Of a stretch of DNA of 24,887 nt, positions 2,981 through 15,495 are shown one piece after another. The position numbers and the translations under genes were made by a program. Source of the DNA: a virus; the IMG/VR virus record IMGVR_UViG_3300046006_002996, positions 1-24,887 of that record. One strand, written 5' to 3'. The notes beneath the pieces were generated by a model. That model did not search any database and had not been told where the DNA came from. It saw only the letters and a program-made list of their open reading frames with translations. Within the stretch, counting starts at the first letter, position 1, and each line of letters starts with the position of its first letter.

Positions 2981-4369
2981 TTATACTAATTCTTTCCAAT
3001 TTATTGATGCAGCTAATAAAGCTCCTGCCCCTGCTGTTTGTAATGGACCAGCAGCCAATGCTAAGACGCTTGAACCTGTTATAGCGACTGTCCCTGCAGC
3101 ATTATATCCTATCACATTAGAGTTATCAGCTAACATAGACAAATCAAAAGTATAAACTCCGATTACGTTTGGAATTATTGCAGTCCAAATAGTTGTACCT
3201 GTTATTGCTGTCGATGCTGTGGCAGCTTGGTCAACCGTTGTAACCGACCCTGCTACCGTTGCAGCAAAAGTTGCTCCCGTATTTGGTGTTGGTAACATTA
3301 ATAATGCTACTGTAAGTGCTGTCGCTGTTGTTGCTGCTACAGCTACCGTTATTGATACTGATGTTGGTATAATTCTTGCTCTTTTTGTTAAATCATTTGT
3401 AGATGCTGCTCTTAATGATAGTATTGGGTAATAAGTATTAGCAGTCACCCCACCTACTTTTAAAGTTGCACCTGATGTACCGCCAAAATTTCTCCAACCT
3501 CTTATACTAACATCGCCTTCTTGAATAACTACACAATTAATCAATGTTAATTTACCTGGTTGAGCTAATACACCGTTAGAAACTATTTCAGCTCTTACAG
3601 GTAATGTTCCTGTTCTACTCCAAGAAGTTGATAAACCGTTTACAGATGATATTTCGTGAGCCCATACCATTCCATTATCTCCTGTCTCAAATCCATAACG
3701 AATTGTACCTACACCTAACCATTGGTATTCTACAACTAGATGTTGAGCTTTAGCCCAATCAAGCGTTATACCTGATGCTCCTGTGCCATCCATTTTATCT
3801 TTATTCCAATCATTTTGTAGTATTCTTTCTTCTGCTCCAGCAACGCCTGCCGTCATATATCGTCTTACTAATGATACTGATGCACCATCGGCTTCAATGT
3901 AAAATCCATCACCTACTGTTGAAGGATATATCCACTGGTCTGTAAACATTCCAACTCTTTGTCTAACATTAGTTATTAATTCGTTAAAATTAAATGTTAC
4001 TCTAAACAAAGTTGAGATACCAGGTGCATAACGAATATGGTTGTACGATTGAATCCAATATCCTGATGTGGCAGTAGTCAAAGTGTTCAACTCCAAACCA
4101 TATAAGTTAGTGGTTAATGCTTGTGTTCCTGATGCGGTTGCAGTAGATTCCCAAAGTTGTGTTAAGGTAGAAGTCAATACCGTGCCAAAAGTTTGCTCAA
4201 AGGCTATTCTAGCATCCGACACTCTTACTCTTTCAAATGAATCTAAAGTAAAATCATCGTGATTATATGTAGTTGTAGCAACGCCTTTTTGAATAACGTG
4301 TAAGGCTTTTTCTGTTGGATCTACCGTTGCTATCGTAGAATCAATCCCTGATTTTAAAACTGTACTCAT
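2981..4369 (-). CDS. Tail fibre or receptor-binding protein candidate
   Basis: A 462-aa protein rich in Ala, Thr, Gly and Ser. The N-terminal half carries RYAPGISTLFRVTFNF, then RQRVGMFTDQW, GFYIEADGASVSLVRRY, and QHLVVEYQWLGVGTIRYGF. This order (packed-particle strand, VGMF/D, GFYIE.DG, VEYQWLGVG.IRYG) is one I associate with phage tail or adhesin proteins of beta-sandwich type. The C-terminal third is a low-complexity Ala/Thr/Val region, as in surface-exposed virion proteins. It follows the collagen-like fibre gene by 3 nt and ends before a strong terminator, so the adaptor, fibre and this protein form one fibre block. A receptor-binding role is inference. Confidence 0.7.
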   Translation of the reverse strand: MSTVLKSGIDSTIATVDPTEKALHVIQKGVATTTYNHDDFTLDSFERVRVSDARIAFEQTFGTVLTSTLTQLWESTATASGTQALTTNLYGLELNTLTTATSGYWIQSYNHIRYAPGISTLFRVTFNFNELITNVRQRVGMFTDQWIYPSTVGDGFYIEADGASVSLVRRYMTAGVAGAEERILQNDWNKDKMDGTGASGITLDWAKAQHLVVEYQWLGVGTIRYGFETGDNGMVWAHEISSVNGLSTSWSRTGTLPVRAEIVSNGVLAQPGKLTLINCVVIQEGDVSIRGWRNFGGTSGATLKVGGVTANTYYPILSLRAASTNDLTKRARIIPTSVSITVAVAATTATALTVALLMLPTPNTGATFAATVAGSVTTVDQAATASTAITGTTIWTAIIPNVIGVYTFDLSMLADNSNVIGYNAAGTVAITGSSVLALAAGPLQTAGAGALLAASINWKELV

Positions 4370-4372
4370 TTT

Positions 4373-5479
4373 TTATATTTGTATTAGATATTTTACGGTA
4401 AAATTACCACTTGCGTTGTTAAATGCGGTTGCTCTTAAATCGAATGAAACATTATCAATTATATTTTCAATATTAAAAACAATGCCATTTAAATAGAAAT
4501 CATCTAAACTTGTTTCGCTTGTTTCTTGCGGTATAAACGATATATTTTTAATATTGGCATTAGTTATCAAAGCGTTTAAAATCGTTGCTATTTTGCTGTC
4601 TGTTTCGTTTCCTAAATCAATAACAGTTGTTCCTGTGATAGTGGTTATTATAGTTCCATCTGCTCCGTCGTCACCTTTTACACCCTGTATTCCTTGAATA
4701 CCCTGTGCGCCTGTTTCTCCTATATCGCCTTTCAATCCTTGAATCCCTTGTATGCCTTGTTCACCTTGCACTCCCTGAATCCCTTGACTTCCTGTATCGC
4801 CTTTTACACCTTGAACGGACATATCGGTTGTATAAGAATAAACTACACCATTCCAAAGGTATAATTTACCATTATCTACATCCGTTGGGTCAACTGTTGA
4901 AACGATTGCAAACTCTCCTGATGCTATTCCTGTTGGTGCTGTATCAGCTAATAAAGCTGCTAATGTAGTGTAAGTTTTTGAAATTTTAAAACCTTCTCCT
5001 GTTATCCCTTGCTCACCTTGAACTCCTTGTATTCCCTGAACTCCTTGTATTCCTTGTAACCCTGTGTTGCCTGTATCTCCTTTATCACCTTTTAAACCTT
5101 GTATGCCTTGAATACCCTGTATGCCTTGCGCTCCAACATCGCCTGTATCTCCTTTTGTACCTACTTCGCCTTGAACTCCTTGACTTCCTGTGTCGCCTTT
5201 TACTCCTGTTGCTCCTGTTGCACCATCGAAATAATCTATTCCCTTAATCGGTGTATATCCATCATCACCTGTATCTCCTTTAATTCCCTGTATGCCTTGC
5301 AATCCTTGAATACCTTGCTCTCCATCATCTCCTTTGTCGCCTTTTAATCCTTGCAGTCCAATATCAGATATTTCAATATAAATAGTTTCAGTTGTTTGAA
5401 CCACATCGATATTAATCTCCGATGTTAATTCATCAACCGTTAAGTTTACTTCTTGTACTATCGGAATTATCTCTATCAT
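4373..5479 (-). CDS. Collagen-like tail fibre protein
   Basis: A 368-aa protein dominated by Gly-X-Y triplets, mostly GIQ, GVQ, GLK, GDK and GDT. Collagen-like segments span about 41-75, 87-163 and 224-275. The first break carries YTPIKGIDYFDG, a motif frequent in phage fibres. A globular insert at about 164-222 (from FKISKTYTT, with KLYLWNGVVYSY) separates the second and third segments; similar inserts occur in other phage collagen fibres. The C-terminal 90 residues form a non-repetitive tip. Such proteins trimerise as rod-like fibres. The start overlaps the adaptor gene's stop by 4 nt. The repeats make the DNA itself repetitive, a likely site of length variation. Confidence 0.9.
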   Translation of the reverse strand: MIEIIPIVQEVNLTVDELTSEINIDVVQTTETIYIEISDIGLQGLKGDKGDDGEQGIQGLQGIQGIKGDTGDDGYTPIKGIDYFDGATGATGVKGDTGSQGVQGEVGTKGDTGDVGAQGIQGIQGIQGLKGDKGDTGNTGLQGIQGVQGIQGVQGEQGITGEGFKISKTYTTLAALLADTAPTGIASGEFAIVSTVDPTDVDNGKLYLWNGVVYSYTTDMSVQGVKGDTGSQGIQGVQGEQGIQGIQGLKGDIGETGAQGIQGIQGVKGDDGADGTIITTITGTTVIDLGNETDSKIATILNALITNANIKNISFIPQETSETSLDDFYLNGIVFNIENIIDNVSFDLRATAFNNASGNFTVKYLIQI

Positions 5480-10010: not shown

Positions 10011-10523
10011 ATGGAAGTTTGGAAAGATATTGTTAAGTATGAAGGCATTTATCAAATAAGCAATCTTGGAAATGTAAAAAGTATGAGTTTTCAAAAAAGC
10101 GGAAAAGAAAAATTAATGAAAATGACAAAAGGACAAGCTGGTTATTTGAAAATAATTTTAAGACTAAACTCAATAAAACATACATATTCTATTCATAGAC
10201 TTGTAGCTATTGCATTTATTGATAATTTAGAAGAAAAACCACAGGTTAATCATAAAAACGGGATTAAAACTGATAATAGGGTTGAAAATTTAGAATGGAA
10301 TACAAGTAAAGAAAATATTAATCATTCTTATAATACTGGGCTAAAAAAAGGATATAAACTTGGACAAAAAGGAATAACAAATCCATCAAGTAAACTTAAC
10401 GAAAAAGATGTTTTAGAGATAAGAAATAGTACTTTAAGAGGTGCTGAATTAGCAAGAAAATATAATGTTAGTTCAACATTAATTTATAGTGTTTTAAAAA
10501 ATAAAATTTGGATTCATATATAA
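10011..10523 (+). CDS. NUMOD4/HNH homing-type endonuclease 2
   Basis: A 170-aa paralogue of the protein at 1093-1614. NUMOD4 motif at the N-terminus (W4-K5, KYEGIYQISNLGNVK at 9-23), HNH core H62-R63, N80-H81 and NRVENLEWNT at about 89-98, then a C-terminal helix-turn-helix-like region (EKDVLEIRNSTLRGAELARK). It is inserted on the plus strand between the scaffold and capsid regions, with its own promoter and leader, and ends at a bidirectional terminator. The middle segment between NUMOD4 and HNH diverges most from the first copy, as expected if the two recognise different sites. Confidence 0.9.
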   Translation: MEVWKDIVKYEGIYQISNLGNVKSMSFQKSGKEKLMKMTKGQAGYLKIILRLNSIKHTYSIHRLVAIAFIDNLEEKPQVNHKNGIKTDNRVENLEWNTSKENINHSYNTGLKKGYKLGQKGITNPSSKLNEKDVLEIRNSTLRGAELARKYNVSSTLIYSVLKNKIWIHI

Positions 10524-11749: not shown

Positions 11750-13387
11750 TTAATTAGTTACTACTTCCTTTAGTTCTGGCAATGTTACCTTATTCGCTTC
11801 AAACCATACGTCAAATTCTTTTTTAATCTTTTCAGTGTCTAAATAATTAGTCACTCCTATCCAATATTTTTGAAACAATATCTTTCTTTGTGCTTCTTCG
11901 TTCCCAAACACCTCCAACACTTGTGCTACTGTACTGTGTAAATAGGGTTCACATTTAGCCTTAGCCAAACTTATCTGCAAGTCAATAGGGTTGTTTCTAA
12001 ACTTGCTCCACAAATATTCTTCAAACAATTTGTCCAAGATAATACTGTTACAACTCGACTTAACTGCCATCTCATATCGTTCCAACAACACGTCATAACT
12101 TTCAATGATATACCTTCTTCCTAAGTTGATGGTAATCATACTCTCGAACTTATCCTTGCCCGTATCATACAAGTTCAATATCCACTCTGATAATTTCCAC
12201 TCGATATACTCCGCAAAATCAGCATATTTGTTTAGTTGATTCTCAAATGGCTGTTTGTCAAATAATATCTCTGTTGCTGTTTTCTCCACATTGTTGTTGG
12301 TTCTAATCCCAAAACTCGTACCCCAATGTGATTTGTACATTTTTTCTTCCAATATCAACAACTCATCATTGAACTGTGTCCAAGTGCTTAATTCAGGTGC
12401 TAAATACCCTCCAATGTTATCCCCTACCAACAACTTCTCATCTCCCTCTGGTAATGGTACTTCTATAACATCTGTTACATCATTCTTCCCTACATACTTT
12501 CCGTGTCCATTGCAAGTGCCACAAACTTCATCTCCTGTCTTGCCACTTCCCTGACAATCACCGCAAAATTGCACCACTTTCCAAAACAATGGCATTCCCC
12601 TGAATATTTTGTACAAAGTTAGTATGCTTTGGTTCTGTGCCAACTCTTTTGCTATTCCTATAACGCTGTCAATAGCAGCCACCTTTTCATCCTCCCCTAC
12701 ATAAGACAAATTACTACATATCAAAGCAGGTACTTCCCCAAATGGATGCGCAAAACTCAAATCTTTTACCAATGTAAATTGTCCGCCCTCTTGCAAGAAC
12801 GTTCTATCCATCACATCATCGACTATTCTCCATAATAACTTACTGCCACTTGGCAACTGCTTTGGCTCAAACAGTACATATTCCACCATTTGACCTTTAC
12901 TCTCGTAATGCCTTATACTGTTTATACTCTTATAAGTTGGGTAAACGTCTAACTTTGGAGTTGTAGTGTATTCCAAAAATATCAACCCATTAGGGTCTGT
13001 GTTAAATAATTCAATAGCCTTGTGTTGCACCCATTCAGCCAATGGCTTCCCATCACGAATACTTGCAATCTTTTTTATAAATGCTTCCTTGATAGTCGGG
13101 TTAATATCATAATCCTTAACCCCTCCTGTTGCGTAATAGATATTATCTATCGGTTGAAACAACCTACTGAACACATCTTTTATATCCCTAGAATACTTCC
13201 TTCTAGCTAATGCCTTCTTCTCACTTTCAATGATTTCAATCTTCTCAATCAACTCCTCTATAAAGTCCTCCCCATTCACTAATGCTCTCAACTCCTTAGA
13301 GTATTCACGCATTTCTAAAAAATCTTTACAAACTCTTTCGTGTGTTTTAATAACGTCTATCGCTTCTTGGTCGCTCTTGAAAATCAT
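11750..13387 (-). CDS. Portal protein with a DnaJ-type zinc cluster
   Basis: A 545-aa protein located between large terminase and scaffold, the normal portal position and size. The portal forms the dodecameric ring through which DNA enters and leaves the head. The C-terminal half is helical, with a stem-like SIITLD-type region and a long amphipathic tail. Unusually, residues 275-296 contain two CxxCxGxG units (CGDCQGSG at 275-282 and CGTCNGHG at 289-296), the zinc-binding pattern of DnaJ-type cysteine-rich domains. This sits in the middle of the fold and may form a zinc-stabilised knob. A TACATTTG box at 13410-13417 could start its transcript. Confidence 0.7.
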   Translation of the reverse strand: MIFKSDQEAIDVIKTHERVCKDFLEMREYSKELRALVNGEDFIEELIEKIEIIESEKKALARRKYSRDIKDVFSRLFQPIDNIYYATGGVKDYDINPTIKEAFIKKIASIRDGKPLAEWVQHKAIELFNTDPNGLIFLEYTTTPKLDVYPTYKSINSIRHYESKGQMVEYVLFEPKQLPSGSKLLWRIVDDVMDRTFLQEGGQFTLVKDLSFAHPFGEVPALICSNLSYVGEDEKVAAIDSVIGIAKELAQNQSILTLYKIFRGMPLFWKVVQFCGDCQGSGKTGDEVCGTCNGHGKYVGKNDVTDVIEVPLPEGDEKLLVGDNIGGYLAPELSTWTQFNDELLILEEKMYKSHWGTSFGIRTNNNVEKTATEILFDKQPFENQLNKYADFAEYIEWKLSEWILNLYDTGKDKFESMITINLGRRYIIESYDVLLERYEMAVKSSCNSIILDKLFEEYLWSKFRNNPIDLQISLAKAKCEPYLHSTVAQVLEVFGNEEAQRKILFQKYWIGVTNYLDTEKIKKEFDVWFEANKVTLPELKEVVTN

Positions 13388-13441: not shown

Positions 13442-14805
13442 TTACCATAAAATTCTTGGTTTATGCTTCCCTTTTATCTCCACATAAGCCCTCATCATTA
13501 TCGCATCAGCAAAGTCAGGACTTCGTTTCAACCTCTCTTTCAAATCTACTTTCCTCTCTATCGCCAAGTACCCATCATCATCCAACGGTTTTCTATTTAT
13601 TTGCTCAAACTCCTCAATTATTTGTTTTGAATAAACTTTATCCTGTATAAATACCTTGCCATCCTTTACCAAATCCGCAAAGTAAAAATAACATTGTGCT
13701 TTCAAATTCTTATAGTTCTCTGTTTTCCCTGATACCTTAATCGCTCTGCCATTGTTCTTGAAACCTACAGCACCACTCAATACCCCAAACTTACTACTAA
13801 ACCTAGTAAACGTCTGCAATCCATCACTATCATAAATCACATTCTTAATTGGCACTCTATGCTCTATCCTCAAATCATTCAACTTCTTGCTTATCATTGT
13901 ATCGTCTATCTTGTCAATAGCGATTATCTTTATTGCTACCATCCCAGCCCATATCACTATTACAAACTTATCCGAACCTGTATAAGCAATATCCGCAGTG
14001 ATATATCTGTCCTCAGTTGGCTTAACCCACTCACTTGTAAACATCCCCAAGATATTCTCATAGTCAAACATAGCATAAGGATTGTCATCAAAATTCCAAT
14101 CTCCTTCTAATAACCTCTTCCTACTCGCTGTATCTAAACTCTTCAAAGTCTCTACATAACTCTCGTGCAAATGCGGATTGTCAGTTGGTAAAGCCTGTAT
14201 GAACTTCCTGTACTTTGGCAAACTATTACTCAAACTCGGATTGTAAAAGTTTGAATACGTCCAATTCTTAGCAGGATTACAAGTCATCAACATCTTAGGT
14301 ATCAACTTATACTCCCTCAATTTATACCTTATCCTACTCTTTACTATCTGTACTGCCTTCTCCGTACACTGATTGCACTCATCTACAAACGCACCCGTTA
14401 TCTCCAAAGACCCCAAACTGTCAAAATTAGGGTCACTCGGATATAGAAATAAATCCTTCAATAATATCTCACTACCATTCAACCAAGTTATAACATTAGT
14501 CTGACTATTGTATTTGTACTGATTAGCCAACCCTAAATCACTGCTCAACTGAAAAAATGTATTCAATGTAGTCTCCTTCAATGCCTTCAACTTCGCCCTA
14601 CCCATTAACCACCTCGTCTTTGGGTATTTCTGACATTGCTCCATTAACCACAACACACCCAATGCTGATTTTCCTCCATTCTTTACCCCCTAATATTGCT
14701 ACTAGGGGGTTAACAACCACCAGCCCCTCCGCCATAGAGAAGCTCGGTGGTTTCCGAATCGTTTAGGTAGTAAACTGCGTACTGTTGCTTTTTTAATAAC
14801 TCCAT
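13442..14805 (-). CDS. terL: Large terminase subunit, interrupted in the Walker A codons
   Basis: The packaging motor: an ATPase plus RNase H-fold nuclease. Translation from the ATG at 14805 gives an N-terminus ending ELLYGGGAGGC and then TAA (14712-14710). In another frame, from 14674 on, the sequence continues GKSALGVLWLMEQ and runs to 13442. Joined, YGGGAGG plus GKSALG restores a normal Walker A and a protein of about 440 aa, the usual length. Downstream are FVDEC (Walker B), LMTCNPAKNW, and nuclease acidic motifs ITADIAY, VIYDSDG and SPDFADAI. About 41 nt (14675-14715) carrying stops in both relevant frames separate the halves. The nearest in-frame alternative start downstream, TTG at 14662, would lose Walker A. 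Either the gene is broken, or the insert is bypassed, or the sequence is wrong there. Confidence 0.85.
14675..14715 (-). other. 41-nt stem-loop insertion inside the terminase Walker A codons
   Basis: Between GGT GGT (14721-14716) and GGA AAA TCA (14674-14666) lie 41 nt that do not encode terminase. They contain a perfect 8-bp GC-rich stem, ACCCCCTA (14710-14703) with TAGGGGGT (14692-14685), loop 10 nt. A TAA lies one codon after the last Gly codon, and a TAG (14692-14690) blocks the downstream frame from upstream. The length is not a multiple of three. If both flanking Gly pairs are kept, the insert is 38 nt. The downstream frame after the TAG reads GVKNGGKS, which also fits GxxxxGKS. Confidence 0.75.
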
Positions 14806-14824: not shown

Positions 14825-14832
14825 CAAATGTA
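14825..14832 (-). promoter_or_regulatory. TAnnTTTG promoter upstream of the large terminase gene
   Basis: The minus strand reads TACATTTG about 20 nt before the ATG at 14805. No -33 TTTG at the 15-nt spacing used by the two strongest promoters here. Confidence 0.5.
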
Positions 14833-14952: not shown

Positions 14953-15495
14953 TTACTCTTCTAGCTTCATCCCTCTACGCTTGTCTTTATATGATAGCTT
15001 TTGGACCGGTGCTGCTTCGGGTGTAACGTCGATATAGTCAGCATCTTCAGGCGGTTTGGTGCCTCCTCCCAACGATATGATGTTGATACTTTCCCCGTTT
15101 GTGGTCACGTCTAATTTATCTCCATACATTTTTGGGACGGCTTTTGCTAAATAGAATGTCATCTTATCAGTTATCAACCTGTCACGGGCTACGGCTGTAA
15201 GGCTGTCTTTTTCGTGTTGGTTTCCTCTTGCCGTTGTCAATAGGTCATCAAACAGTTGGTGTGCCTTAATTGCTCTTGCCTTCATATACATAGCGTTAAT
15301 CTTTTCATCGTCTACTAACCAACTGTAGAAGGTCATTACATTGCAGTATGGTTGCTCCCTTAGTATCTTGTTGAGTTCATTACCAGCAGCGAACTGTTCC
15401 ATTACGTGTTGAACTATCGCGAGACGTTGCTCAGGTGGTGTCTTAACCCCGTTAATTACGGGTTTTAAGTATTCGCTATAATCTTGTAGTTCCAT
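14953..15495 (-). CDS. terS: Small terminase subunit
   Basis: A 180-aa protein with an N-terminal helical DNA-binding region (EQRLAIVQHVMEQFAAG, then ILREQPYCNVMTFYSWLVDD, a helix-turn-helix-like pattern). A central helical oligomerisation part (KARAIKAHQLFDDLLTTARG, RDRLITDKMTFYLAKAVP) and an acidic C-terminal tail with DYIDVTPEA follow. This is the usual layout of Sf6-like small terminases, which recognise the packaging site and regulate the large subunit. It is the first late gene after the divergent control region. The gene is visibly richer in G+C (about half in parts) than the rest of the window. A short palindrome (ATAGAT-AAA-ATCTAT) overlaps the start codon. Confidence 0.8.
   Translation of the reverse strand: MELQDYSEYLKPVINGVKTPPEQRLAIVQHVMEQFAAGNELNKILREQPYCNVMTFYSWLVDDEKINAMYMKARAIKAHQLFDDLLTTARGNQHEKDSLTAVARDRLITDKMTFYLAKAVPKMYGDKLDVTTNGESINIISLGGGTKPPEDADYIDVTPEAAPVQKLSYKDKRRGMKLEE

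Follow-up and report, generated by a model that had tools for sequence, protein, structure and literature searches.

The subject of this analysis is a virus contig of 24,887 nucleotides (24.9 kb), the IMG/VR record IMGVR_UViG_3300046006_002996, whose full length is called the window below. It was found that its gene for the large terminase subunit (terL, encoding TerL) is interrupted within the Walker A (P-loop) codons by a 41-nucleotide insert. This insert is quite probably a mobile programmed-bypass element, linked to HNH endonuclease genes, that allows a full-length TerL to be made. Including the window's own, nine differing hairpin inserts were found at the P-loop codons of related phages. 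It also seems likely, though I hold this a little less firmly, that portable HNH-linked bypass elements have repeatedly invaded these codons, each with a matching stem-loop in the neighbouring coding sequence, and that related phages meet the same pressure by inteins, very short stop-hops or +1 frameshift. The hosts are presumably Bacteroidota, the phylum being taken from the nearest cultured phages, Cellulophaga phage phi10:1 and Flavobacterium phage 11b; the TerL of the window has 51% identity to the TerL of phage 11b. A decoding trick that had seemed nearly unique among phages now looks like a family that is spreading, which the original prediction, made from a single sequence, could not have seen. 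All the evidence is assembled metagenomic DNA.

The original prediction placed a split of terL inside Walker A at 14675..14715 and read it as either a lesion or a programmed ribosome bypass. The split is borne out to the coordinate. On the minus strand, the first open reading frame (ORF) ends in YGGGAGG-C-stop, and the remainder lies in another frame 41 nucleotides on. As had been expected, leaving out the insert would give a TerL of 440 amino acids with an intact P-loop; the 41 nucleotides are absent from the terL of close relatives. The perfect 8-bp stem is stronger than first described, with 11 pairs in the fold, a minimum free energy (MFE) of -18.2 kcal/mol and a z score of -6.1. The interruption motif occurs once in the window, against 0.00 occurrences expected from shuffles. 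The features are as follows.

14716..14805, minus strand: 5′ part of terL, with ATG at 14805 and 30 codons up to the take-off codon; the ORF is closed by TAA at 14712-14710.
14716..14751, minus strand: 5′ stem-loop within the coding sequence, 15 bp, the take-off codon closing its 3′ arm; the last 50 nucleotides fold with an MFE of -22.0.
14716..14718, minus strand: putative take-off codon GGT (Gly, P-loop position 6).
14710..14712, minus strand: in-frame stop codon TAA, one codon (TGT) past take-off.
14675..14715, minus strand: insert of 41 nucleotides, a 38-nucleotide gap plus the landing codon, missing in close relatives.
14685..14710, minus strand: insert hairpin, with arms 14710-14700 and 14695-14685 and a 4-nucleotide loop, supported by covariation over nine elements.
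14678..14684, minus strand: A-rich 3′ spacer AAAGAAT between the hairpin and the landing codon.
14675..14677, minus strand: putative landing codon GGA (Gly).
13442..14674, minus strand: 3′ part of terL (Terminase_3), 410 codons past landing, beginning GKSALG (GGA AAA TCA GCA = GKSA), with its stop at 13442.
14953..15495, minus strand: terS, an Sf6-type small terminase gene, the next gene 5′ of terL.

The 5′ part is 78% identical over 32 amino acids to the intact TerL of L004 (L-numbers denote the other contigs or loci fetched, and W the element of the window). The terL region of 1365 nucleotides recurs without a single change in two further IMG/VR contigs (L002 and L003), which elsewhere have 13 and 30 mismatches to the window. 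Therefore, the interruption is not a lone sequencing error, and the homologous inserts found elsewhere rule out a lone lesion as well. A group I or group II intron or an intein is likewise ruled out in the window, where the insert is only a hairpin.

TerL relatives were fetched and the sequence ahead of the P-loop was read in each. No interruption was found in L004-L007, L009-L012 and about 100 others. In L008, a homologous insert lies two codons upstream of where the window has its own, and a third, four codons upstream, came to light in L110 by a pattern scan. Protein-based searches found L158, L165, L175 with L184 (the same insert) and L247, while L352 and L355 were reached through an HNH gene; six of the nine elements came from protein searches without any structural criterion. 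With the native P-loop numbered Y G1 G2 A3 A4 G5 G6 G7 K, the elements are as follows (take-off position; take-off/landing codons; insert length including the landing codon).

W: position 6; GGT/GGA; 41 nucleotides.
L008: position 4; GCT/GCT; 42 nucleotides.
L110: position 2; GGT/GGT; 43 nucleotides.
L158: position 2; GGT/GGA; 44 nucleotides.
L165: position 4; GCC/GCT; 43 nucleotides.
L175 (and L184): position 4; GCC/GCA; 43 nucleotides.
L247: position 4; GCC/GCT; 45 nucleotides.
L352: position 4; GCT/GCA; 43 nucleotides.
L355: position 4; ATA/ATA; 41 nucleotides.

All nine share one anatomy: a take-off codon, 5 nucleotides, a 10-bp hairpin, 6-9 A-rich nucleotides and a landing codon. The amino acid and the first two bases of the take-off and landing codons are equal in 9/9 elements, and L355 has matching Ile codons although its TerL is distant. 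The lengths of 41-45 nucleotides span all three phases; therefore, no single frameshift or readthrough accounts for the inserts, and a -1/+1 programmed frameshift or readthrough is ruled out for this long class.

In an alignment of the nine elements, a 10-bp helix starts from the sixth nucleotide of the gap in every one, and 95.6% of its cells are paired. Its first pair is A-U, G-C or U-A in three elements each, and the distance from the helix to the landing codon is 6-9 nucleotides. Two-sided changes number 17, as against 4.9 ± 1.6 in shuffles (0/500 as high) and at most 6 in slid structures. A second stem-loop lies just before the take-off codon in all nine elements, as judged from 50-nucleotide folds. 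The fraction of uninserted relatives (n = 116) as stable at the same position is 0 for W, L008, L175, L247 and L355, 0.02-0.03 for L165, L110 and L352, and 0.07 for L158; the Fisher combined P is about 6e-9, a value computed as if the elements were independent, although L175 and L247 have a stem-loop in common. Every listed uninserted sister has a weaker 5′ fold than its inserted partner (W -22.0 versus L004 -5.0; L008 -18.6 versus L005 -6.5; L110 -13.3 versus L155 -4.3; L165 -14.7 versus L185 -4.1; L175 -17.9 versus L222 -6.8). The 5′ region of T4 gene 60, measured in the same way, gives -10.8 (z -1.3). As a separate observation, the uninserted L249 has a 5′ arm (GACAGCACCACCGAAGAAG) identical to that of the inserted L247 and L175, and its fold is unusually stable (-12.7); it is perhaps a former carrier of the insert.

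The main rival of bypass, which I regard as improbable, is removal at the RNA level. A nuclease would cut the hairpin of 38-45 nucleotides from the mRNA and the ends would be rejoined, as in a miniature intron; the split terL of phage ICP1 is known to be spliced (PMC10448857). Removal accounts equally well for the three phases and the restored protein, and the pair of hairpins on either side of the 5′ junction might act as a signal for processing. However, about 40 nucleotides is far under the length of any known self-splicing intron, and I know of no mRNA cut-and-ligate reaction of such a kind in bacteria. In addition, removal gives no evident role to the amino acid repeated at both edges or to the stem-loop ending at take-off.

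It is very doubtful that TerL is made as two assembling pieces, by termination at the stop codon and re-initiation at TTG 14662 or nearby, although the window does offer this start codon to the second part. The break lies inside the Walker A loop at a codon differing between phages; therefore, no piece would have a whole P-loop. Moreover, the flanking codons are kept on both sides and together form the native P-loop.

Where have these inserts spread? Interrupted TerLs make up 10/126 on the tree, a quick one with some long branches, whose ten interrupted rows include the short breaks L354 and L358 described below; eight changes are needed, forced by well-supported branches. The inserts lie on separate branches and have close sisters without an insert. 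The dispersal amounts to three positions and eight tree changes, all in terL. Presence or absence differs even between TerLs that are 96-98% identical (L110/L155, L175/L243). Such variation would also suit a DNA-level switch, with excision of the element from some members of the population and packaging of DNA by the empty form alone. I give this little credence, since no excision enzyme is linked to the window's element and a 5′ stem-loop in the flanking codons would then serve no purpose. Outside terL, scans by pattern and by covariance model gave nothing near the 35-51 bits of genuine elements (best others at most 29 bits); they covered viral contigs, 84,980-species genome contigs, 396 genomes from a single bacterial phylum and the relatives' loci. 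The low-scoring matches inspected were mostly intergenic hairpins. A repeat family dispersed through genomes was rejected on these grounds. No prophage copy of an inserted terL was found in about 790 bacterial genomes, where the TerL matches are open-framed and 36-45% identical.

L175 and L184, which come from different datasets, have a 40-nucleotide gap identical letter for letter. In contrast, their flanks have diverged, with 7 synonymous and 1 non-synonymous changes in the 5′ part and 67 and 13 in the 3′ part; for each of the parts, the ratio of proportions comes to about 0.045. Both flanks are under strong purifying selection. Therefore, the two parts have been kept as one protein together with the insert, unless the transfer was very recent. 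The nine records, including the window and a 39.9-kb relative, have no second terL but only the two pieces, though the records may be fragments. A dead gene, inactivated by a recent palindromic insertion or an assembly error and needing a helper or a second copy, would fit the short repeats on both sides of the insert (TGG..TGG in the window, TGCT..TGCT in L008), such as a transposition-like event leaves. It is nearly refuted by nine different elements across many samples, by the mostly synonymous divergence around an unchanged insert and by the lack, in these records, of a second copy of terL, which is an essential gene. Of the two options first put forward for the window, inactivation has thus nearly dropped out, and programmed bypass is strongly supported, as far as sequences can tell, by nine inserts of one architecture in all phases, the selection, the same amino acid in 9/9, the 5′ stem-loop tied to the insert and the HNH genes next to several inserts.

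In L008 and L165, an HNH gene (HNH_3) ends right ahead of the terL start, and the two HNH genes are 64% identical. I searched viral contigs with an alignment of the two. Further HNH genes were found directly before terL in L352, L354, L355, L356, L357, L358 and L407, while that of L359 overlaps a terL intein. All of these loci have a disrupted P-loop: L352 and L355 carry a hairpin insert there, L354, L356, L357, L358 and L407 a short break, and L359 an intein. Among the scan loci with terL just downstream, 10/11 are interrupted; the sole exception is L415, which is L005 and has a more distant HNH gene. An HNH gene lies within 900 nucleotides 5′ of terL in 4/10 interrupted versus 1/109 uninterrupted cases (P = 1.3e-4), and in 2/8 interrupted ones when the HNH-scan loci are left out (P = 0.012). 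L005 is the closest relative of the inserted L008, and the different HNH gene (1337-1861) lies there at the same spot between terS and an uninterrupted terL. HNH genes seem to come and go at this spot. Homing endonuclease genes beside terminase genes, and collaborative homing, are already known (PMC10448857).

The five short breaks, of 1-11 nucleotides, disturb the frame at the P-loop directly downstream of the HNH genes.

L354, 2981-2992: one-nucleotide break with GGG TAA.
L356, about 715-722: five-nucleotide break, or eleven if read from GGC to GGC.
L357, about 3110-3128: break of one or four nucleotides.
L358, about 3006-3014: eight nucleotides, GGC-TGA-AW-GGT.
L407, about 3058-3066: eight nucleotides, GGC-TGA-AW-GGT.

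A stop codon lies right at the break in all but L357. L358 and L407 have nearly the same 8-nucleotide insert (TGAATGGT/TGAAAGGT) at different codons of distant TerLs, without a 5′ stem-loop. Other TerLs carry inteins at the same P-loop site. In two of these, an HNH gene overlaps in a different frame of the intein linker (L039, 1990-3060 and 2318-2878; L359, 2047-3120 and 2369-2986).

On the bypass reading, ribosomes would translate 30 terL codons as far as the take-off Gly codon. The hairpin beginning 5 nucleotides downstream would hinder the A site, and the peptidyl-tRNA would let go; stem-loops that hinder tRNA binding in the A site are described in PMC7282821. The coding stem-loop, refolding behind the ribosome, may help to pull the mRNA through. 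The tRNA would re-pair by the first two bases 38-42 nucleotides on, at a landing codon that specifies the amino acid of take-off, and one full-length TerL would be made. The likely benefit of the insert lies at the DNA level: it may disrupt a conserved P-loop coding sequence that the neighbouring HNH endonuclease would otherwise cut. If the insert breaks the HNH target, the endonuclease and the element could therefore travel as a cassette, as has been proposed for T4 gene 60. The HNH gene is still beside some copies; in the phage of the window it may have been lost or lie elsewhere.

Several points weigh against this reading. No HNH gene lies beside terL in the window, L110, L158, L175, L184 or L247. 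The hairpin inserts lacking one may have lost it; in the terS-terL spacer of the window, the search for a remnant gave no more than an ACATTTA/TATG stretch whose likeness to the 3′ ends of HNH genes is suggestive. An HNH protein encoded upstream of the terminase can also serve packaging, as in HK97 (PMC10448857). The third base of the take-off and landing codons is equal in 3/9 elements (L008, L110, L355) and differs in 6/9; the GGT/GGA mismatch noticed at the outset is real in the window, while the codons are identical in 3/8 other elements. A stop codon near take-off, correctly noted for the window, occurs in 5/9 elements and is missing in L165, L175, L247 and L355. The idea of the 5′ stem-loop and its 50-nucleotide length came from folding W, L008, L165, L352 and L175; L110, L158, L247 and L355 were then new. 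No common stem-loop after the landing codon was seen across the nine elements, and no nascent-peptide signal like the KKYK of T4 was evident by inspection, the N-terminal part being like that of uninserted relatives.

If the bypass reading is true, the P-loop site of terL is a natural laboratory of recoding. For long-distance programmed bypass, T4 gene 60 is so far the one phage case studied in depth, alongside a single family in mitochondria. Nine elements in different places, with sisters that lack an insert, would give comparative data on the required signals and the precision of codon match, and they bear on whether escape from an endonuclease drives the origin of bypass. An essential gene that is split and out of frame in a metagenomic phage may still work.

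Some other features of the window were observed. The sequence TACATTTG lies directly before terL (14825-14832, minus strand), with similar motifs ahead of terL in L110 and L006; it matches the Flavobacterium promoter motif TAnnTTTG. Two NUMOD4-HNH endonuclease genes (1093-1614 and 10011-10523, plus strand) run against the direction of the structural genes. The minus strand also encodes a protein in the portal position with a DnaJ-like CXXCXGXG zinc motif (11750-13387; Pfam match below cut-off) and a collagen-like Gly-X-X repeat protein (4373-5479).

It was sound to compare the insert with T4 gene 60 and with mobile byp elements, as was done at the outset. In gene 60, ribosomes slide across 50 nucleotides with the help of a 5′ stem-loop, a take-off stem-loop that occupies the A site, a nascent peptide and matched Gly codons (PMC11194080, PMC5009743); the gene adjoins the defective HNH gene mobA and is uninterrupted in other T4-like phages (PMC3014915). 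The terL elements resemble it in a hairpin gap of 38-50 nucleotides early in an essential gene (codon 46 of gene 60, codon 30 of the window's terL), in take-off and landing codons for one amino acid and the stem-loop behind take-off (PMC3014915, PMC11194080), and in the HNH gene on the 5′ side of several terLs and the relatives without the gap. As in that type, two ORF parts of one protein are separated by tens of nucleotides that are presumably untranslated, and gapless relatives exist. By analogy, the elements may work like gene 60, although strict membership of the gene 60 type is not claimed. The interrupted gene is terL rather than a topoisomerase gene. The hairpin begins 5 nucleotides past the take-off codon, which the T4 hairpin includes. 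The stop in the window comes one codon later (TGT TAA) instead of directly after take-off, and a nearby stop is not universal. The third codon base is often unmatched, and neither KKYK nor a 3′ stem-loop is seen. Finally, there are many insertions in terL as against one in T4.

The byp elements of Magnusiomyces capitatus mitochondria are also dispersed short inserts, often with imperfectly matched take-off and landing codons and with no evident need for a special N-terminal sequence (PMC5009743, PMC8211752). In contrast, the terL elements occur in double-stranded DNA phages, at a single site of a single gene, and they come with a 5′ stem-loop in the coding sequence and a link to HNH genes. The bypass proposed at UUA in Streptomyces phage Hau3 likewise concerns a phage terminase gene (PMC5009743), although its gap is much shorter and its signals differ, being based on a rare codon. 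In collaborative homing, for example at terL of ICP1, a homing endonuclease gene lies beside an essential gene interrupted at the presumed cut site (PMC10448857); here, the interruption is a hairpin of about 40 nucleotides, not an intron.
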